DNA from: Chloroflexota bacterium
Lineage (GTDB): Bacteria; Chloroflexota; Anaerolineae; Promineifilales; Promineifilaceae
Reading direction: 5' to 3'
NCBI GenBank assembly: GCA_008501785.1
Contig: QQUD01000958.1
Location: 1-6,463 of the forward strand
DNA: 6,463 nucleotides
Numbering within the stretch: the stretch's first letter is position 1; each line of letters opens with the position of its first letter. The notes under the pieces were generated by a model. The model did not search any database. It was given only the letters and a program-made list of their open reading frames with translations, and was not told the DNA's origin. A program made the translations under genes and the position numbers. Positions 1 to 6,463 of this stretch are shown piece by piece.

Positions 1-1
1 G

Positions 2-88
2 GAACCGTGGGTTGAGGCGGGAACGGCCGTTTTCCACGAAGAAACATCACACCATGAACCGGTTCCGGGACCATTAGTAACAGCGTAA
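2..88 (+). CDS. Probable 3' end of an unidentified gene (partial)
   Basis: Reading from base 2, 28 codons stay open to a TAA at 86-88. The visible tail is rich in His, Glu and Pro and ends in PGPLVTA. No domain can be recognised in so short a piece. Support is indirect: the AACGGCCGTT palindrome at 22-31 is read here as Thr-Ala-Val, the frame it takes most often in the genes of this window, and a perfect inverted repeat follows the stop at once. A + strand gene ending here would be convergent with the Nudix gene. A second + frame is also open from base 3 to a TAG at 75-77, and a minus frame is open from 47 to the edge, so the call is tentative. Confidence 0.35.
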   Translation, partial: EPWVEAGTAVFHEETSHHEPVPGPLVTA

Positions 89-98
89 TTGTAATAAC

Positions 99-153
99 TT
101 CCCGGAAGCTTAGAACGATTGTTTTTGAAGCGTCATTTTATAGCTTCCGGGAA
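99..153. repeat. Perfect 12-bp inverted repeat after the left-edge gene
   Basis: TTCCCGGAAGCT (99-110) and AGCTTCCGGGAA (142-153) are exact reverse complements separated by 31 bases. Each arm is itself nearly palindromic around CCGG. The element lies 10 bases after the TAA at 86-88 in the convergent gap. It could be a 3' mRNA hairpin or a REP-like palindromic unit. A T-run does not follow on either strand, so it is not a standard intrinsic terminator. A weaker 5-bp stem (160-164 with 178-182) followed by TTTTT lies just to the right and might end + strand transcription. The remaining sequence to 269 shows nothing further that I can interpret. Confidence 0.55.
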
Positions 154-269
154 ATTAGCTGGTTGAAAACTTGGTCTAACCATTTTTGTTGGGGATGGAT
201 GAGCGCAGGTTTTGGAGTGAGGGGTGCCCAGAATGGGTGGAAGGTGTGATTGTTGTCGGCGGGGTGTGA

Positions 270-785
270 CTAGGAAACGGCCGTTTCCTTCTCACAAACC
301 AAATGAAAAAAGTGACGCGGTTTGTGTGTGCTGATCGCATCATTGGGAACCCAACCTACGATTTGAAAGTCGATAGCAGTTGGATTAGGCATCTGATCGT
401 ATTCTACGTAGGATATTTTTGTGAAGTTATTTTGTGTGCCTTCGTAATGCACGGTGAGGCCACGTGAGAACACTTTCATGAAGGGAAAGCTGGTTGTGTT
501 TGGTTCGAGTCGGGCCTGAATTGGGCGCGAAATGACGCGGCTGTCTGGCTCGAGTTCGTTGTCCATTTTGCCTAAATAGCTAATGATGCGGACCTGTGTC
601 AGACCTGTTTCTTCGGTGACTTCGCGGAGAACGGCCGTTTCCAGCCCCTCCCCATCTTCCACCGTCCCCGCAGGCACCTGAATTCCCGCCGTCGGATGCC
701 GAAATAGCAAAATTTGACGACCCATTGCTGTGTCGCGTGTGATAAAGGCAGATACTTTGTGAACTGATTGAGGTTTCATCATCAT
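270..785 (-). CDS. Nudix hydrolase
   Basis: This 171-residue protein carries a complete Nudix box at residues 40-62, fitting GX5EX7REUXEEXGU exactly: G40, E46, then REVTEETGL at 54-62. The Glu residues of REVTEE bind the divalent metal needed to hydrolyse a nucleoside diphosphate linked to a variable group. Substrate cannot be read from the sequence. The protein is cytoplasmic, with no signal peptide or membrane segment. Three ATG codons in a row open the frame (M1-M3), and no Shine-Dalgarno-like sequence precedes them, so translation may depend on coupling to the yihY-like gene that ends 32 bases upstream. Two AACGGCCGTT palindromes fall inside: one encodes ETAV within the variable X7 part of the Nudix box (residues 49-52), the other forms the C-terminal end KETAVS. 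The family call is firm; the biochemical role is open. Confidence 0.93.
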   Translation of the reverse strand: MMMKPQSVHKVSAFITRDTAMGRQILLFRHPTAGIQVPAGTVEDGEGLETAVLREVTEETGLTQVRIISYLGKMDNELEPDSRVISRPIQARLEPNTTSFPFMKVFSRGLTVHYEGTQNNFTKISYVEYDQMPNPTAIDFQIVGWVPNDAISTHKPRHFFHLVCEKETAVS

Positions 786-817
786 AAAAGGAAAGCAGCA
801 ACTGGCGAAGGACCCGT

Positions 818-1897
818 TTATCGTTTTTTGTTTTCCGTTTTTTGTTTTTTATTATCAAACATCCCATTCAGAAACGCAATCAACAATCCAATAGCGACAC
901 CAAGCAAACCAGTAGCAAATTGGCGTTGGATGACCTGGGTGGATGAAACGGCCGTTTCCCCTCTTGCCGCGACAATTTGACCAGATGCATGAGGCAGTGC
1001 GGGGAAGTCGATGGGTTGTGGTAGTAGGACCGGTTCATAATCGGGTTGTGGCAGTTTTGAGCCGTATTTATTCGTATATACTTGCGTGAATTCTGCGCCA
1101 AACAGAATAATTTGTGCGGAATAGTAAATCCATAGCAGCACAATGACCAGCGATCCTGCTGCGCCGTAGGTGGAGCTGACTGTGCTGCGACTGAGATAGA
1201 GGCCAATTAGATATTCACCAATGGCAAAGAGAACGGCCGTTACCGTCGCCCCCAAAAACACATCTTTCCACGCAATTTCCACATCGGGCAGCAGCCAAAA
1301 TAAAATAGCAAATAGCAAAATTAACAGACTGAATGAAACCAAAACTTCTAGATGTGGTAGTAAAGGGCCAATGACGGGCAAGATTGTTTTTAATAAACCA
1401 CCCAAGGCGTTAATTACGGTGCCTGCGGTGAGTGAAAGCAAGAGCAGCAGCCCCATGAGCAGAACCATGGCAAACGAGATAAGCCGTTTGCGTATGATGC
1501 CAGCGATGCCTTGATCTGATGTTGGTTCGATACCCCAAATGATGTTTAAGGCGCGTTGCAGTTGCCCAAAAAGGCCCGATGCGCCAAAAAACAGCAGCGC
1601 GGTGCTGATAATTGTGGCGATGACGCCTGCTTTCGATTGGCTGGTGCTGTTAATAAGCTGCTCGATCACCACTGCTGCTTCGCGTCCAACTGTGTCCTGA
1701 ATCGCATCCACGATTTGACCTTCGGCTGCTGCATCACCAAAGATGAAGCCTGCGACAGCGACGGCAATAACCAACAAAGGGGCGATGGCAAATATGGTGT
1801 AATATGCCAATGATGCGGCCAACATGCTGCCATGATCACGGCTAAAACCAACGGCCGTTTCCCGAATCAATTCAACAATCTTCTTCACAACATCCAT
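818..1897 (-). CDS. YihY/BrkB family inner-membrane protein
   Basis: This 359-residue polytopic membrane protein has the hallmarks of the YihY/BrkB (formerly 'ribonuclease BN') family: SLAYYTIFAIAPLL near residues 29-42, and YGAAGSLVIVLLWIYYSAQ followed by LFGAEFTQVY at 244-274. Hydrophobic segments lie around 30-54, 90-112, 138-165, 184-205, 213-236 and 246-270. After this core comes a Pro-rich linker (281-303) and an extra hydrophobic segment (328-346), then a basic tail. This extension makes it longer than the usual core of about 280-300 residues. The molecular function of the family is not settled. The start is backed by GGGGAG six bases before the ATG. Three AACGGCCGTT copies are translated as ETAVG (13-17), TAV (220-222) and ETAVS (314-318). 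The gene is probably co-transcribed with the downstream Nudix gene. Confidence 0.92.
   Translation of the reverse strand: MDVVKKIVELIRETAVGFSRDHGSMLAASLAYYTIFAIAPLLVIAVAVAGFIFGDAAAEGQIVDAIQDTVGREAAVVIEQLINSTSQSKAGVIATIISTALLFFGASGLFGQLQRALNIIWGIEPTSDQGIAGIIRKRLISFAMVLLMGLLLLLSLTAGTVINALGGLLKTILPVIGPLLPHLEVLVSFSLLILLFAILFWLLPDVEIAWKDVFLGATVTAVLFAIGEYLIGLYLSRSTVSSTYGAAGSLVIVLLWIYYSAQIILFGAEFTQVYTNKYGSKLPQPDYEPVLLPQPIDFPALPHASGQIVAARGETAVSSTQVIQRQFATGLLGVAIGLLIAFLNGMFDNKKQKTENKKR
822..849. repeat. 14-bp tandem duplication forming the 3' end of the YihY-family gene
   Basis: Two adjacent units, CGTTTTTTGTTTTC (822-835) and CGTTTTTTGTTTTT (836-849), agree at 13 of 14 positions. On the minus strand they are A-rich and encode the lysine-rich end of the membrane protein (KKQKTENKKR). 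Since 14 is not a multiple of three, the two units are read in different frames and the peptide is not repetitive. The tail probably arose by slippage or local duplication and need not be conserved. Confidence 0.6.
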
Positions 1898-1915
1898 CCT
1901 GCGCTCCCCAGGGTG

Positions 1916-1970
1916 TTAAGTAACCGTTCGGAAATAAAATAGCGGTTTCGGAACCGAACGGTTACTTTAA
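1916..1970. repeat. Large dyad upstream of the YihY-family gene
   Basis: GTAACCGTTCGG (1920-1931) pairs perfectly with CCGAACGGTTAC (1954-1965). The match continues outward by two base pairs and, past a one-base bulge, to 1916 and 1970. The loop holds a second short hairpin, CGGTT (1943-1947) with AACCG (1952-1956), which shares bases with the right arm, so the two folds exclude each other. The position just before the GGGGAG ribosome site suggests a leader hairpin or an operator. No T-run follows on either strand, which argues against a terminator. Confidence 0.6.
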
Positions 1971-2008
1971 GCCCATTCGCCAATTCCATAACTTATTTGC
2001 GAATGGGC
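1971..2008. repeat. Second large dyad in the same leader
   Basis: GCCCATTCGC (1971-1980) and GCGAATGGGC (1999-2008) are exact reverse complements. After one mismatch, three more pairs form inward (1982-1984 with 1995-1997). It directly abuts the previous dyad, so two strong hairpins would stand in tandem in the untranslated leader of the YihY-Nudix unit. Whether it acts as RNA structure or as a protein-binding site cannot be told from the sequence. Confidence 0.55.
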
Positions 2009-2040
2009 ACTAAGCATGCAGCTGCACGGCAACATGAAAG

Positions 2041-2068
2041 ATTAAAATTCATAGCGTTCGTAGGTCAA
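2041..2068 (-). promoter_or_regulatory. Candidate sigma70-type promoter for the YihY-Nudix unit
   Basis: On the minus strand TTGACC (2068-2063) and TTTAAT (2046-2041) are separated by 16 bases. These are close to TTGACA and TATAAT. It lies between the terminator of the upstream gene and the YihY-family start, where a promoter is expected. Transcription would begin near 2034 and leave a leader of about 135 bases containing both dyads at 1916-2008. Assignment rests on consensus similarity alone. Confidence 0.4.
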
Positions 2069-2101
2069 GACGCTGGCTGGACCTGATGTAAACGAAACAA
2101 C

Positions 2102-2124
2102 CGGACAAAACAGCGTTTTGTCCG
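2102..2124 (-). terminator. Intrinsic terminator after the trans-sulfuration gene
   Basis: CGGACAAAAC (2102-2111) and GTTTTGTCCG (2115-2124) form a perfect 10-bp stem with a three-base loop. On the minus strand it begins 12 bases after the TAA at 2137-2139 and is followed by the T-rich run GTTGTTTCGTTT. The T-run is interrupted, so termination may be incomplete. The stem is symmetrical, but on the + strand the following bases (ACGATAAGG) are not T-rich, so it fits minus-strand termination. Confidence 0.65.
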
Positions 2125-2136
2125 ACGATAAGGTCT

Positions 2137-3279
2137 TTACACTTGTTTTAATGCGAGAGCCAAATCGTCTATCAAATCTTGCACGTGTTCGATGCCTACC
2201 GAGATACGCACTAAACCTGGATCAACAGCCAATGGTGAGTCGGCAACAGAGGCGTGTGTCATTGGCGCTGGGACTTCGATCAGCGATTCAACCCCGCCCA
2301 GCGATTCGGCTAACGTGAAAAGCTTGGTTTCTCGAGCAATTGTGCGGGCTGCTGCTTCACCTCTGTGCAATATAAAGGAGATCATGCCGCCAGGACCAGC
2401 CATTTGTCGTCGTGCCAATTCGTATTGGGGGTGGGTGTCTAAGCCTGGATAAATGACTTCGGCAACGGCTGGGTGATCGGCTAGAAATTGGGCAATCATG
2501 CTGGCGTTGTGGCTGTGTGCTCTCATGCGCAATGCTAGCGTTTTGATGCCGCGCAATGTTAAGAAGCAATCCATCGGACCGGGCACGGCTCCAATGGCAT
2601 TTTGCAAGAATTTGAGCTGTTCGTAAACGGCCGTATCGTTCAACACCACCGCGCCACCGACTACATCTGAATGTCCGCCAATGTATTTAGTGGTGCTGTG
2701 AATTACGAAATCTGCGCCGTGGGTTAACGGCCGTTGCAAAGCTGGTGACGCAAACGTATTGTCAACAGCCAGCCATGCCCCCGACTCGTGGGCAATTTCA
2801 GCGATGGCTGCAATGTCAGCCAGTTTTAACAATGGATTCGTGGGCGTTTCCAGCCAGACCAGTTTTGTGTTTGGCTTCATCGCTGCCGCCACAGCTTCAG
2901 TGTCAGTTAACTCTACAAAGTCAAATTCAATGCCGTAACCAGAGAGAATTTTGTCGAAAAGACGGTATGTGCCGCCGTAAACATCATTTCCCGAAAGGAC
3001 GTGGTCACCCGGTTTGATTAGTCTCAGAATGGTATCAATCGTGGCCATGCCAGATGCAAAAGCCAGCGCATATTTGCCACCTTCGAGCGCTGCCAGCGCT
3101 TCTTGTAGGGCAGATCGCGTGGGGTTGTCGGTGCGCGAATATTCATATCCTTTGTGTTCGGCTATATCTGTTTGGGCATAGGTAGAGGTTTGGTAAATGG
3201 GTGTCATCACAGCGCCAGTTGTGAGATCAGGCTTGACTCCCGCGTGAACCGTTAGTGTCTCTAGATGAAGCTTTTTCAT
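2137..3279 (-). CDS. PLP-dependent trans-sulfuration enzyme, probably cystathionine gamma-lyase (or gamma-synthase)
   Basis: The 380-residue protein is a full-length Cys/Met metabolism PLP enzyme (aspartate aminotransferase fold). It shows YSRTDNPTR (47-55, phosphate-binding Tyr and Arg), ASGMAT (75-80), Tyr101 in DVYGGTY that stacks on the cofactor, Asp173 in AVDNTFASP, and Lys198 in HSTTKYIGGHSD, the expected Schiff-base lysine. SLGGVESLIEVPAPMTHAS (326-344) and Arg358 complete the active site. The family includes cystathionine gamma-synthase, gamma- and beta-lyases and O-acyl-homoserine sulfhydrylases. Glu46 and Glu335 match the acidic pair of yeast gamma-lyase, where E. coli MetB has Asp and Ser; this tilts the call to gamma-lyase but is inference. 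The ATG is preceded by AAGGAA at good spacing. Palindrome copies encode DTAVY (215-219) and QRPL (182-185). Confidence 0.9.
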   Translation of the reverse strand: MKKLHLETLTVHAGVKPDLTTGAVMTPIYQTSTYAQTDIAEHKGYEYSRTDNPTRSALQEALAALEGGKYALAFASGMATIDTILRLIKPGDHVLSGNDVYGGTYRLFDKILSGYGIEFDFVELTDTEAVAAAMKPNTKLVWLETPTNPLLKLADIAAIAEIAHESGAWLAVDNTFASPALQRPLTHGADFVIHSTTKYIGGHSDVVGGAVVLNDTAVYEQLKFLQNAIGAVPGPMDCFLTLRGIKTLALRMRAHSHNASMIAQFLADHPAVAEVIYPGLDTHPQYELARRQMAGPGGMISFILHRGEAAARTIARETKLFTLAESLGGVESLIEVPAPMTHASVADSPLAVDPGLVRISVGIEHVQDLIDDLALALKQV

Positions 3280-3285
3280 GGTTTT

Positions 3286-3291
3286 TTCCTT
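3286..3291 (-). promoter_or_regulatory. Ribosome-binding site of the trans-sulfuration gene
   Basis: On the minus strand this reads AAGGAA, six bases before the ATG at 3279. It supports the chosen start. No other start codon in frame has a comparable site close by. Confidence 0.6.
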
Positions 3292-3384
3292 TTCAGAAAT
3301 GTTATACCATTATCTTACCAAAAAGATGCGCGTATGGGGATTTATACGACTATTGTCTTGCAATTTACAGTTTATGATGAATGT

Positions 3385-3399
3385 CATAATTGGATTATG
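3385..3399. promoter_or_regulatory. Short dyad, possible operator
   Basis: CATAAT (3385-3390) and ATTATG (3394-3399) form a perfect inverted repeat with a TGG spacer. It lies in the divergent region about 110 bases from the start of the minus-strand enzyme gene and about 70 bases before the putative start of the + strand RNA. It is AT-rich and could arise by chance; another dyad follows within six bases. Confidence 0.3.
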
Positions 3400-3404
3400 T
3401 TTTG

Positions 3405-3421
3405 TCACATGCTATCTGTGA
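3405..3421. promoter_or_regulatory. TCACA-N7-TGTGA dyad, possible operator
   Basis: TCACA (3405-3409) and TGTGA (3417-3421) are exact reverse complements around seven bases. The half-sites resemble those of CRP, but in the opposite order and with a spacer of seven rather than six bases, so it is not a CRP site. It is best treated as an unassigned binding-site candidate in the divergent intergenic region. Confidence 0.3.
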
Positions 3422-3430
3422 TTTTTTTCA

Positions 3431-3460
3431 CTATTAAATAATAGTCTAATAGCATATACT
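3431..3460 (+). promoter_or_regulatory. Candidate promoter with overlapping dyad for the intergenic RNA
   Basis: TATACT at 3455-3460 is a good -10 box, putting the transcript start near 3467. The -35 position (3432-3437) matches poorly, which suggests an activated or weak promoter. Over that position lies an inverted repeat, CTATTA (3431-3436) and TAATAG (3439-3444), and TAATAG recurs eight bases on at 3447-3452. Thus three half-sites with regular spacing cover the -35 to -10 interval, as an operator would. Confidence 0.4.
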
Positions 3461-3466
3461 CTGCCG

Positions 3467-3604
3467 CGGATTAGATGGCACGAAAGTGCAACTCGGAAAA
3501 GTCAATGAACGCATTAGAAAGGTTATGCCAAACTAACCCGTTTCTTGATTCTTTTCCTCCTCCTAACGTTTAGGGTGATGATGGTGGATCATCACCCTTT
3601 TTTT
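3467..3604 (+). ncRNA. Putative structured small RNA or leader RNA, no known family recognised
   Basis: This gene-free stretch has a -10 box just before it and a strong intrinsic terminator at its end. A long-range stem can form: GGATTAG (3468-3474, with C3467 and G3466) pairs with CTAACCC (3533-3539, then G and T) with one mismatch, and TGGCA (3476-3480) with TGCCA (3526-3530) just inside it. A GNRA hairpin, GCAC-GAAA-GTGC (3478-3489), and a GGTTA/TAACC hairpin (3521-3525 with 3534-3538) compete with parts of this stem, so switching is conceivable. Between the fold and the terminator is a pyrimidine tract containing CCTCCTCCT (3556-3564). I compared it by eye with common riboswitch cores (SAM, cobalamin, glycine, c-di-GMP, preQ1, purine) and found no match. 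No open frame with a ribosome site is visible. It may be a free sRNA or an attenuating leader of the glycosyltransferase gene, which starts 37 bases later. Confidence 0.45.
3573..3604 (+). terminator. Strong intrinsic terminator
   Basis: GGGTGATGAT (3573-3582) and ATCATCACCC (3588-3597) form a perfect 10-bp stem around GGTGG, followed by seven T residues (3598-3604). This is a textbook rho-independent terminator on the + strand. No gene on that strand ends here, so it must serve a non-coding transcript or an attenuated leader. A smaller stem, CCTAA (3562-3566) with TTAGG (3570-3574), overlaps its base but is much weaker. Confidence 0.9.
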
Positions 3605-3621
3605 GTTTTCCCAAGACGAGG

Positions 3622-3640
3622 TAAAATTAAAATCTGATTT
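3622..3640 (+). promoter_or_regulatory. Possible promoter giving a leaderless glycosyltransferase mRNA
   Basis: TAAAAT occurs twice in tandem (3622-3627, 3628-3633). The second copy ends seven bases before the ATG at 3641, the distance expected if transcription starts at the A of the start codon. No Shine-Dalgarno sequence lies at normal spacing; the only GAGG (3617-3620) is about 20 bases away. The -35 match is poor. Both facts fit a leaderless mRNA but do not prove it. Confidence 0.35.
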
Positions 3641-6463
3641 ATGAATTATCAAGCTGAAGCAGATCACGCCTCGTATATTCGTCGATTTGGGGTCATCGCC
3701 GCCCAATTTTCGATATTCTTTTTGAGTTTTATTGGTGGATTAGCGGCTACGCGGATTTTTTATGAGCTTTATTTCCCGGCAGCTAGTTGGTTGGGACGGC
3801 CGTATACCGCCTTTCCCCTCGCGGCTCTTTTTGCATTTGTTGTTTGGGGGCTTTGGCTCAAAATCACGATGCGCTCGCCAAATCAAACAGAAATCGGACA
3901 CTCCCTTACGCTTTTCCCTTTGCTTCTCAATCTAATTTATTTAACAAATTCTACGGTTGATTTGGTGCGAAGTCGTTTCATATTCTTTGTCAGTTTGTGG
4001 TTGGTAGTGGGATTAGTTGTGGAATGTCGTGCGCAGAAAGCTGCCTGGAAATGGTGGGGAATAGGCCTGATTTGCACATTTTTGCTGCCCGTTTATTTGT
4101 TTACCATGTCGGCATTGGTGGGTAGAGATGATGTGTTTGAGTTTCAAGTGGTTACGCCGAAGTTAGGCATTGTGCATCCGACAGGGTATCCATTGTATTT
4201 ACTATTGGGCAAGTTATTTGCGTTGCTGTCGGTGCAGTCGGTGGCGTGGCGGCTGAATTTTGCATCAGTAGTGTATGCGTTGTTGGCGGCGGTGTTTTTG
4301 TTTTTGGTGATGTGGCGAGTGGGAAAACGGCCGTTTCCTGCCATTGTCGGTGCCGTTGTCATTGGCCTATCGCCAACATGGTGGAGCCAGGCAATTCAAG
4401 CCGAAGTGTATGCGCTTAATGTGCTGGTAATCTCAGTTGGGCTGTGGCAAATGGCAAAAGTATTGATGCCTGACGCTGAAATTGAATCACATAAATGGAT
4501 GGTTTGGCTCGCATTTACGCTAGGTGTAGGGCTGACCAATCACTTAACAACGGTGATTTTGATCCCTGCTGCTGTTTTGACGGCGATATTGATGCCAAAT
4601 AATCAATTTTGGGCTAGCAGGAGTAGAGGCTTTAGCCGGGATGCTTTAGTCGCTCAGACCCGGCTAAAGCATCTACTCCAGGTAAGTGCTGCCTTTGTTT
4701 TGCCATTGCTGCTTTATGCTTATTTGCCGCTGCGATGGCAAGCCGTTGTGGGTGAGCCGATGGGCTTTGCTCGATTTGTTGATTGGGTAATTGGCGGCCG
4801 TTTTCAGGGGGCGCTGCAATTGATGGCTTGGCTGCGTGACTTAACCCGGTATGAAGTGGTAGGGCGGCTCTTTTTAGAGAATTGGGGCTGGTTTAATTTG
4901 GCAATTGCGCTGCTGGGTATAGGCTGGTTGCTGTGGCAGCAGTGGCGAGTGGCGCTGATTTTGGTGGTAACGTGGCTGGGCTACACTTTTTACAGTTTGA
5001 ACTATTATGTGCCAGATTTGGCTGTTTTTTTGCTGCCTGCGCAAATCATGGTGGGCATTTGTTGGACGTTGGGATTGGGTTGGCTGCTGCAATTGGGTGA
5101 ATGGCGACTGAGTTTTCAAGGTGGTTTTTCAATACAACCTGTGTTGTTGTTGATTTTGGTGGGACCGGTTGTGCTGCTGGCGGTGCGGTCGTGGCCACAG
5201 GTGGACCAGTCTGACGATGATGGTCGGACGCAGTGGGGAACGGCCGTTTTGTCTCTCCCTCTCGCAGAAAACAGCGCTATCTTAGCCGACAGTGACAAAT
5301 ATCCGCCGCTCTTTTATTTGCAACAAACTGAAGGAATGCGTCCTGATTTAGATATTTCTGTTTGGCCGGATGAAGCGGCGTATCGGGCACAGCTAAGCGT
5401 AAGATTGGGCGCTGGTCAAACGGTTTATCTGGCACGATTCTTGCCAGGGTTAGAGGGACTTTACCATTTGCGTTCGGTGGGACCATTAACGGAGGTAAGC
5501 CCCGATGCTTTGCAACTGCTGCCTACGACAGCAACGCCGACCCAGCTTTCATTTGACACGATAACGTTAGTGGGATACGAGTTGGAGCCAGTGGCGCGTG
5601 TGGATGGGACGCAAACGGCCGTTACTTTTTACTGGCAAACGGCTGAACCTGTGTCTGTGGTGCGGCATGTGTATGTGCGTTGGTCCGGTGAACCGGCAGA
5701 AGCAGGTCAGCATCCGGCAAATAACTATTATCCAACGGTGGCGTGGCGGCCGGGTGAAATTGTGTCCGATTATCATTTGTTGCAGGCTCCGGTATTGCTG
5801 GATTCGGAAAAACGCGCTTTGCAGGTAGCATTAGCCCCGCCGTTTAGTTCACTAGATGATTTGGTGTGGCAAACCGTGGTGGAGGTTGAACTGGCAGCGA
5901 CGGAGGGTAGGGGATTGGAACGGCCGTTTCGTGTTCAATCTGTTGATGCAACGATTACCGGCGCAACTTTGCCTGAACAAATCCGGCCCAAACAGTCGCT
6001 GCCACTGCTGATTACGGGGTTTGGTGATGCTGAATCGTTTGATTTTAGACTGGAACCGGTTAGCATTAATCAGGTTTTGGGTGGTCGTTTGGCAGCTTCA
6101 CAAAAGTGGGGGAACGATGGGGCGGAATTTTTGTTGGCGGCTGAGGTGTATGTGGGGGAGGATAACGGCCGTTATCGCTTGATGGCTGCACACGATGATG
6201 GCGTTGTCTGTGGCTGGATGCAGTTGCAGGGGGATGGGTGTGTTTTAGGAGAAATTGAAGTATCGGGCGTGCCGATTCCCGCAGGTGCTGTGAATTATGA
6301 AGATAAAATTGCACTTTTAAGTGTGGATGTTGCTGACGCTAATTTGCAGCCTGGGGGTCAAATTAATTTGACGATAAATTGGCAAAGCCTTGCGCCAATG
6401 CGTGAAGATTATACGGTGTTTGTGCAGGTTTTGGATGCACAGGATCGGCTCGTGGGGCAGGTA
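3641..6463 (+). CDS. DUF2723 / GT-C type membrane glycosyltransferase, partial at its 3' end
   Basis: The frame runs 941 codons from ATG to the right edge without a stop. A TGA in frame at 3635-3637 fixes this ATG as the earliest start. Residues 1-520 are strongly hydrophobic with many membrane helices and carry DUF2723 signatures: DDVFEFQ (163-169, acidic residues in the first large loop), HPTGYPLYLLLGKLF (179-193), QAEVYALN (253-260), GLTNHLTT (297-304) and YYVPDLAVFLLPAQ (455-468). DUF2723 proteins (GT117; human TMEM260 is a protein O-mannosyltransferase) use lipid-linked sugars on the outer membrane face. Residues 530-941 are predicted extracytoplasmic and beta-rich, with two similar modules (about 638-735 and 893 onward; the second reads VFVQVLDAQDRLVGQ). 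Acceptor and sugar are unknown. Residues 327-346 come from a palindromic insertion. Six ACGGCCGT copies are translated as RP, TAV or NGR. Confidence 0.85.
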   Translation, partial: MNYQAEADHASYIRRFGVIAAQFSIFFLSFIGGLAATRIFYELYFPAASWLGRPYTAFPLAALFAFVVWGLWLKITMRSPNQTEIGHSLTLFPLLLNLIYLTNSTVDLVRSRFIFFVSLWLVVGLVVECRAQKAAWKWWGIGLICTFLLPVYLFTMSALVGRDDVFEFQVVTPKLGIVHPTGYPLYLLLGKLFALLSVQSVAWRLNFASVVYALLAAVFLFLVMWRVGKRPFPAIVGAVVIGLSPTWWSQAIQAEVYALNVLVISVGLWQMAKVLMPDAEIESHKWMVWLAFTLGVGLTNHLTTVILIPAAVLTAILMPNNQFWASRSRGFSRDALVAQTRLKHLLQVSAAFVLPLLLYAYLPLRWQAVVGEPMGFARFVDWVIGGRFQGALQLMAWLRDLTRYEVVGRLFLENWGWFNLAIALLGIGWLLWQQWRVALILVVTWLGYTFYSLNYYVPDLAVFLLPAQIMVGICWTLGLGWLLQLGEWRLSFQGGFSIQPVLLLILVGPVVLLAVRSWPQVDQSDDDGRTQWGTAVLSLPLAENSAILADSDKYPPLFYLQQTEGMRPDLDISVWPDEAAYRAQLSVRLGAGQTVYLARFLPGLEGLYHLRSVGPLTEVSPDALQLLPTTATPTQLSFDTITLVGYELEPVARVDGTQTAVTFYWQTAEPVSVVRHVYVRWSGEPAEAGQHPANNYYPTVAWRPGEIVSDYHLLQAPVLLDSEKRALQVALAPPFSSLDDLVWQTVVEVELAATEGRGLERPFRVQSVDATITGATLPEQIRPKQSLPLLITGFGDAESFDFRLEPVSINQVLGGRLAASQKWGNDGAEFLLAAEVYVGEDNGRYRLMAAHDDGVVCGWMQLQGDGCVLGEIEVSGVPIPAGAVNYEDKIALLSVDVADANLQPGGQINLTINWQSLAPMREDYTVFVQVLDAQDRLVGQV
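4620..4679. repeat. 60-bp palindromic element inside the glycosyltransferase gene
   Basis: The left arm (4620-4640, beginning GGAGTAGAGGC and ending TTTAGCCGGG) and right arm (4659-4679, ending ATCTACTCC) are reverse complements at 20 of 21 positions, around an 18-base loop. The loop segment GATGCTTTAG (4640-4649) also pairs perfectly with CTAAAGCATC (4664-4673), giving an alternative fold, and GCTTTAG is present twice. It is exactly 60 bases, 20 codons, and leaves the reading frame intact, adding a basic, polar stretch (RSRGFSRDALVAQTRLKHLL, residues 327-346) between two membrane helices. CAG flanks the inner part on both sides (4618-4620, 4679-4681), but an insertion bounded by it would be 61 bases, so target duplication is doubtful. 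Confidence 0.75.

Follow-up and report, generated by a model that had tools for sequence, protein, structure and literature searches.

The 6,463-nt stretch of DNA analysed here (the window: Chloroflexota bacterium, contig QQUD01000958.1, positions 1-6,463) contains 14 exact copies of the 8-bp palindrome ACGGCCGT, 12 of them extended to the 10-mer AACGGCCGTT. These sites are best explained as copies of a highly iterated palindrome (HIP) that is spread genome-wide in one Chloroflexota family, and that serves as a selected and exactly recognised DNA signal for host and phage DNA alike, an explanation to which we give an even chance. The firmest conclusion from the data is that fixation bias acts on an 8-bp palindrome, at thousands of positions in host genomes and more weakly in phage DNA. 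An earlier account made from the letters of the window (the sequence-only reading) had counted twelve 10-mers and two further 8-mer cores, and a recount gives the same. With sites masked, a second-order Markov model predicts 0.09 and 0.01 copies of the 8-mer and the 10-mer, respectively, against the 14 and 12 seen. None of 200 dinucleotide shuffles of the window gave 13 or more matches with up to one mismatch (mean 0.28, maximum 3). The claimed excess of about 2,000-fold over random holds, by our own arithmetic, only against a uniform-base model. The same reading assigned the sites to four genes that cover both strands, which is correct for 13 of the 14, the remaining one (23-30) being intergenic. 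Genic sites are read in phase 0 eight times, in phase 1 once and in phase 2 four times.

Distribution and exactness

A scan with the BrkB protein of the window yielded 80 loci. The word ACGGCCGT is the top 8-mer palindrome in four of them (L001, L029, L056 and L072) and is found no more than once in any of the remaining 76; the cyanobacterial loci among the 80 displayed HIP1, a positive control. The genomes of the four loci hold 8,313 (5.0 Mb), 2,984 (3.0 Mb), 6,147 (6.2 Mb) and 7,598 (5.6 Mb) copies, against 182, 55, 71 and 214 copies of the reversed word. Counts above 1,000 are found in 21 of 396 genomes drawn class-wide, all 21 within one Anaerolineae family, and in 31 of the 52 genomes of that family, where the highest count is 15,176. 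Of these 31 rich genomes, 28 were typed as ACGGCCGT (16 by sequence samples and 12 by whole-genome count), and the other three (G155, G285 and G208) are of a CGGCCG type. Density reaches about 2,090 per Mb (15,031 copies in 7.2 Mb), and the low end of the 28 ACGGCCGT genomes is G400, with about 440 per Mb. The sequence-only reading had asked for genome-wide counts, since a density specific to the window would speak against it; in the relatives, thousands of copies stand against tens to hundreds of the reversed word. These whole-genome counts rule out a window-only artefact or a gene-family effect.

With sites masked, ACGGCCGT is over-represented 62-fold in eight GC-rich genomes and 79-fold in an AT-richer set, and its single-base variants, pooled, are at 1.02 and 1.22 times expectation, respectively. 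In the GC-rich group, conservation reaches no further than the 8 bp. At 89% of site ends in the AT-richer set, the base adjoining the 8-mer is A, yielding the 10-mer of the window. An extended target, GGnnACGGCCGTnnCC, was rejected as a mild preference only (G at 0.52/0.47 at positions -4/-3, against 0.39/0.37 at 256 variants). A hypermutable 5-methylcytosine (m5C) was also rejected, as C-to-T variants of the core show no excess.

Conservation of individual sites

When 20 kb of genome G238 are compared with relatives at 92.8, 89.5, 84.5 and 83.7% identity, the aligned sites are intact in 30/30, 35/36, 34/36 and 33/36 cases, against 60, 45, 31 and 29% of control 8-mers (63, 47, 32 and 32% when GC-matched). 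At 74.8% identity, 18 of 32 sites are still intact, against 12% of controls. The separate pair G361/G389 shares 36 of 38 sites (control 59%). In rpoB, where the genome pairs are non-independent, all 26 sites are shared in the 85% identity bin (control 28%), as are 515 of 925 in the 75% bin (control 11%). This conservation contradicts a mutational hotspot without protection; a repair system that protects the sites, as the sequence-only reading had proposed for a hotspot, may still be at work. Synonymous positions were assessed using codons wholly within sites whose amino acid is unchanged, with the expectation drawn from the same codons elsewhere: 66 of 67 codons are identical in G366 (43.5 expected), 65 of 66 in G397 (41.0 expected) and 46 of 55 in G349 (26.2 expected). 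By hand calculation, the 62-fold excess translates into a scaled advantage of close to 4.1, with loss at about 0.07 of the neutral rate. Measured against GC-matched controls, the loss rate is about 0.04 in G398, 0.05 in G366, 0.08 in G397 and 0.11 in G361/G389; no site is lost in G258, and the rate is about 0.24 in the distant G349. A single fixation-bias value roughly accounts for abundance and conservation together.

Turnover of the word within the family

Along the RpoB tree, the word turned over between lineages, and its CGGCCG core was mostly kept. The iterated word is TCGGCCGA in G098 and G399 (84 and 77 copies in samples of 60 kb each), GCGGCCGC in G185 (83 copies in a 56-kb sample) and TGCCGGCA in G402 (39 copies in a 40-kb sample and 3,665 genome-wide). 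G402 (L171-L174, L363, L364) has only 14 copies of ACGGCCGT, and its own word has no CGGCCG core. G155, G285, G416, G355 and G208 are enriched in CGGCCG with no fixed outer pair, as are, more weakly, G413-G415. In small samples (20-60 kb), no strong iterated palindrome was evident in G071, G294, G039, G401, G310 or G338. The labels of G417, G409, G410, G331, G118 and G411 come from counts and position alone. Placed on a tree of 46 genomes, the labels need 8 changes, against a shuffle mean of 20.6. The tree was made by a quick method and rooted at its midpoint, without an outgroup, with G338 and G413-G415 entered as unknown.

Placement and effect on proteins

Open reading frames were used in place of gene calls for coding density. 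Sites per kb inside and outside these frames number 2.14 and 0.80 in the GC-rich set and 1.74 and 0.47 in G185, and there is no coding excess in G098 (1.37 and 1.77) or G399 (1.28 and 1.29). In the GC-rich set, phase 0 predominates and accounts for 321 of 545 coding sites. A codon or protein bias is ruled out, as the word occurs in all three phases and in intergenic DNA, and as codons are better kept inside the word than outside it. Genome counts, phases, intergenic copies and codon conservation thus bear out the earlier exclusion of codon-bias and gene-family explanations. The gaps between sites are near exponential, and the host gap distributions display no even or regular spacing. Neighbours less than 50 bp apart are rarer than exponential in each of five host sets (in sum 43, where about 80 were expected), which would suit a function that a single site can serve locally.

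The word also marks the proteome. ACGGCCGT lifts Thr-Ala-Val tripeptides five- to twelvefold: they number 34.1 and 22.6 per 10,000 residues in two ACGGCCGT sets, against 2.9-4.5 in five other sets, and the two ACGGCCGT sets are at 3.9 and 3.0 times the dipeptide expectation. Where the word is TCGGCCGA, Ser-Ala-Glu is at 4.2 times expectation, and where it is GCGGCCGC, Ala-Ala-Ala is at 2.7 times.

The word in tailed-phage contigs

IMG/VR was scanned with a 16-base pattern around the word, giving at least 120 stretches, 80 of which were grouped into 70 contigs. Among the matches listed, 16 of the 70 contigs hold at least 1 ACGGCCGT per kb (1.0-2.6) and 52 hold fewer than 0.5; among the at least 120 stretches, the corresponding counts are 35 and 75. 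Twenty proteins from four word-dense contigs were tested, and ten match PHROGs, including portal, head protease, tape measure, major head, endolysin and DnaB-type helicase. Nine of these ten phage genes carry the word. Relatives of one tape-measure protein occur in four word-dense contigs, in L491 (9 copies in 20 kb), in four contigs with 0 copies, and in L492, which is rich in CGGCCG and CCGGCCGG instead. In the pooled phage pieces, some of which share sequence, the word is 52-fold over expectation and its inner variants are at 0.92. Two phage protein scans matched only the query's own contig, and the tape-measure protein has three partial matches (31-32% identity) among INPHARED phages. In these pattern-selected contigs, whose hosts are presumed, the avoidance by phages that marks a restriction-modification target is not seen. 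Carriage by phages argues against restriction, uptake or a purely chromosomal role, and since phage DNA carries the word, its reader would act on any DNA replicating in the cell.

Methyltransferases and other genes

The m5C family PF00145 is present in 24 of the 52 genomes and divides the ACGGCCGT genomes evenly, 14 with it and 14 without. Among 30 PF00145 proteins taken from loci and compared, no group follows the word; one group of four, which we take to be Dcm-like, includes the HIP-less G071, where the gene lies beside Vsr. PF01555 is missing or gives only weak matches (best E above 1e-25) in 8 of the 28 ACGGCCGT genomes. The 29 proteins compared form several unrelated groups, none tracking the word, and a group of seven includes a HIP-less member. 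Strong PF02086 matches are found in 24 of the 28 and also in HIP-less genomes. All five PF02086 proteins tested are of the Dam family, and for one of them a comparison with solved structures gave the DpnII methylase as nearest; the presumed target of such an enzyme, GATC, does not occur in ACGGCCGT. In six ACGGCCGT genomes (G171, G198, G366, G400, G407 and G412), PF00145 is missing and the PF01555 matches are all weak. G208, of the CGGCCG type, has no match to any of the three families, and both RpoB and MutL are found there. RpoB is missing from 5 of the 52 draft genomes, and single gene absences therefore mean little. Among PF00145, PF01555 and PF02086 in 52 incomplete drafts, with other families not searched, no methyltransferase tracks the word. 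Three further genes are no better as correlates: Vsr is in 8 of the 52 genomes and unrelated to the word, and MutL (48 of 52) and ComEC (47 of 52) are equally common without it.

As a separate observation, Dam-type methyltransferases of several divergent subgroups (L141-L170) fill the same role family-wide, as if GATC methylation were kept in the family through gene replacement.

Sites and neighbouring features of the window

Table 1. Copies of the palindrome in the window, with reading phase and encoded residues (one-letter code; PLP, pyridoxal phosphate)
Sequence	Position	Location	Phase	Residues
AACGGCCGTT	22..31	intergenic		
AACGGCCGTT	276..285	NUDIX gene (minus strand)	0	TAV
AACGGCCGTT	630..639	NUDIX gene (minus strand)	0	TAV
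AACGGCCGTT	947..956	BrkB-family gene (minus strand)	0	TAV
AACGGCCGTT	1232..1241	BrkB-family gene (minus strand)	0	TAV
AACGGCCGTT	1850..1859	BrkB-family gene (minus strand)	0	TAV
ACGGCCGT core, context AACGGCCGTA	2627..2634	Cys/Met PLP-enzyme gene (minus strand)	0	TAV
AACGGCCGTT	2726..2735	Cys/Met PLP-enzyme gene (minus strand)	2	RP
ACGGCCGT core, context GACGGCCGTA	3796..3803	TMEM260-like gene (plus strand)	2	RP
AACGGCCGTT	4326..4335	TMEM260-like gene (plus strand)	2	RP
AACGGCCGTT	5239..5248	TMEM260-like gene (plus strand)	0	TAV
AACGGCCGTT	5614..5623	TMEM260-like gene (plus strand)	0	TAV
AACGGCCGTT	5919..5928	TMEM260-like gene (plus strand)	2	RP
AACGGCCGTT	6164..6173	TMEM260-like gene (plus strand)	1	NGR

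The BrkB-family protein of the window has matches in all 52 genomes of the Anaerolineae family, the best long one being in G001 (56% identical). In G412, which is AT-rich and carries the word, a fragment of 95 residues at the end of a contig is 67% identical to it, and its best database match apart from the window itself is 81% identical. Names among its matches include Candidatus Promineifilaceae and Candidatus Leptofilum, both Promineifilales in NCBI, which would put the window in or near that order. The NUDIX gene adjoins the BrkB-family gene (270-1897), and the two Pfam domains are fused in 3 proteins (P0016, P0018 and P0030) among 120 listed BrkB homologues.

Other repeats were noticed beside the word. 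A strong hairpin at 4620-4679 of the window (-38 kcal/mol over 70 bases), within the TMEM260-like reading frame, resembles an insertion of a repetitive extragenic palindrome (REP) or miniature inverted-repeat transposable element (MITE). An inverted repeat seen by eye at about 1917-1967, with arms of about 14 bp (AAGTAACCGTTCGG ... CCGAACGGTTACTT), lies between the BrkB and Cys/Met genes and is perhaps a terminator or a REP-like element. Short stretches of G238 (L191 8285-8364, 9234-9299, 13179-13230 and 18046-18114) recur in G258, G398, G366 and G397 at many places and often on both strands; they are dispersed and REP/MITE-like.

Explanations of the iterated palindrome

If the word is a selected signal, a symmetric DNA-binding activity would read its exact 8 bp with near all-or-none specificity, the exactness and symmetry suggesting a dimeric reader. 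Loss of a single copy would be selected against, with a population-scaled advantage of about 4 per site, and the reader would act on phage DNA as on the rest. The most likely class of function, a tentative choice among several, is a DNA-processing or self-marking step such as a Chi-like site for a break-processing nuclease, which would work in both directions because the word is palindromic. Chi sites of RecBCD/AddAB are likewise short, GC-rich, exact, dense and lineage-specific; those that we know of differ in being less over-represented. It is also possible, though we would not press it, that the word is a palindromic licence common to host and phages. A nuclease, silencer or replication factor of the host would deal less well with DNA that lacks it, and the phages of each host lineage would have to carry its version; its specificity would have changed several times, mostly round the CGGCCG core and without methylation, under a pressure strong enough to rewrite protein sequence.

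Several points weigh against a selected and exactly recognised signal. Some outer-base variants exceed expectation: TCGGCCGT is at 3.0 in the GC-rich set, GCGGCCGT at 3.5 in the AT-richer set, ACGGCCGA and GCGGCCGA at 4.5 and 3.9 in G399, and outer-base variants at 3.7 in the pooled phage pieces, so that in hosts and phage contigs the word is less exact at its outer pair. In phages, the sites are conserved beyond background but not as well as in hosts (22 of 32 intact at 83.5% identity, control 0.42), the hosts of the word-dense phages are inferred, and the contigs may include long-integrated prophages. Known Chi sites, to our knowledge, are not palindromes. No recogniser of the word was found, and no search for RecBCD/AddAB was made. 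Biased repair could also mimic selection.

This last is the main alternative to selection: a host mismatch-repair or conversion activity would restore or favour the word in all replicating DNA, with no fitness effect necessary. It accounts for conservation and for the phage copies without load and, by our own arithmetic, one fixation-bias value fits conservation and abundance, though selection predicts the same. Vsr is a known example of short-patch repair, but its rarity here and its indifference to the word do not favour biased repair; conversion also predicts depleted variants, whereas the variants as a group are not depleted (1.02). We know of no enzyme that restores an 8-bp site, and consider biased repair unlikely. 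More can be said for a methylation-coupled HIP, in which an orphan cytosine methyltransferase would mark CGGCCG or GGCC and the marks would steer mismatch repair, copies accumulating to about one per kb. Elhai reports that every cyanobacterial HIP genome has a methyltransferase predicted for part of its word, both having switched together in three strains (PMC4390886), and Synechocystis has a GGm4CC enzyme (PMC6604393). The shared CGGCCG core, the density and the near-universal MutL fit as well. However, PF00145 is missing from half of the ACGGCCGT genomes and PF01555 is weak or absent in 8 of the 28, the two shortfalls coinciding in six; G208 lacks all three families, the compared PF00145 and PF01555 proteins form no word-following group, and MutL is indifferent to the word. 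Gene content thus lends no support to the earlier proposal of a methyltransferase target at CGGCCG or GGCC, and the three families gave no enzyme that co-occurs with the word throughout; one of another family, or one lost from the draft assemblies, may yet do so. We regard methylation coupling as doubtful.

A nucleoid or segregation protein might instead bind the word and organise the chromosome. The genome-wide spread and near-exponential gaps would suit this, and for HIP1 a role in chromosomal structure has been put forward (Xu, 2018, cited in PMC6604393). Yet regular spacing is not seen, and the equally dense phage contigs have no need of a purely chromosomal function, which makes this quite improbable. 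Least credible is a DNA uptake signal for natural transformation. ComEC is widespread, uptake sequences (Haemophilus, Neisseria) resemble the word in their high density genome-wide, and non-coding density is as high or higher in G098 and G399. But ComEC is equally common without the word, phages carry the word, and the GC-rich set is denser in coding DNA. Known uptake sequences are moreover non-palindromic, denser than expected in non-coding DNA and over-represented in mismatched forms (PMC1939737), whereas the word is a palindrome whose variants together are near expectation. An uptake role is very improbable.

Comparison with HIP1 and significance

HIP1 was described in 1995, and its function has been open since. 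In its behaviour the word resembles HIP1, and it falls into the descriptive class of highly iterated palindromes, yet it is not HIP1, whose sequence is GCGATCGC. The sequence-only reading had named HIP1 as the closest parallel with a different sequence, and its HIP1-like interpretation stands: the word is genome-wide, family-wide, exact and beyond codon bias. It shows the Markov excess of highly iterated palindromes sensu Elhai (2015) (31 of 52 genomes; 62- to 79-fold), and its density of about 440 to about 2,090 per Mb falls within the 300-2,700 per Mb of HIP1 (Elhai, PMC4390886). Both are exact GC-rich palindromes, here at about 500-2,500 per Mb. As with cyanobacterial HIPs, other palindromes replace the word in some relatives and a Dam-type enzyme is widespread, and there are signs of upkeep by selection, by which HIP1 is reported to be maintained (Xu, 2018, as cited in PMC6604393). 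Elhai likewise draws the Chi analogy for HIP1 (PMC4390886). The two differ in sequence, phylum and core (CGGCCG here, CGATCG in HIP1), and no methyltransferase of the three families searched tracks the word here. Variants together are at expectation, whereas Elhai reports one-off sequences to be common in many cyanobacteria, and tailed-phage contigs carry the word, a subject on which the available part of that paper makes no statement (PMC4390886). No report of a HIP in Chloroflexota was found among the papers listed in the literature searched (including CGGCCG with Chloroflex and ACGGCCGT with overrepresented), most subscription papers lying outside the search.

A separate system in another phylum is a natural experiment, with several switches and losses among 52 genomes. 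Its sharp 8-bp footprint, its carriage by phages and the lack of a tracking methyltransferase may allow the word to be told apart from methylation, a distinction beyond the reach of the cyanobacterial data. Lineages of differing word type make the recogniser findable by gene-content comparison. The tripeptide effect means that proteomes can be shaped by a signal at the level of DNA, and the nearly unchanged upkeep of the word even at the cost of altered proteins points to its being read by the cell as a signal.

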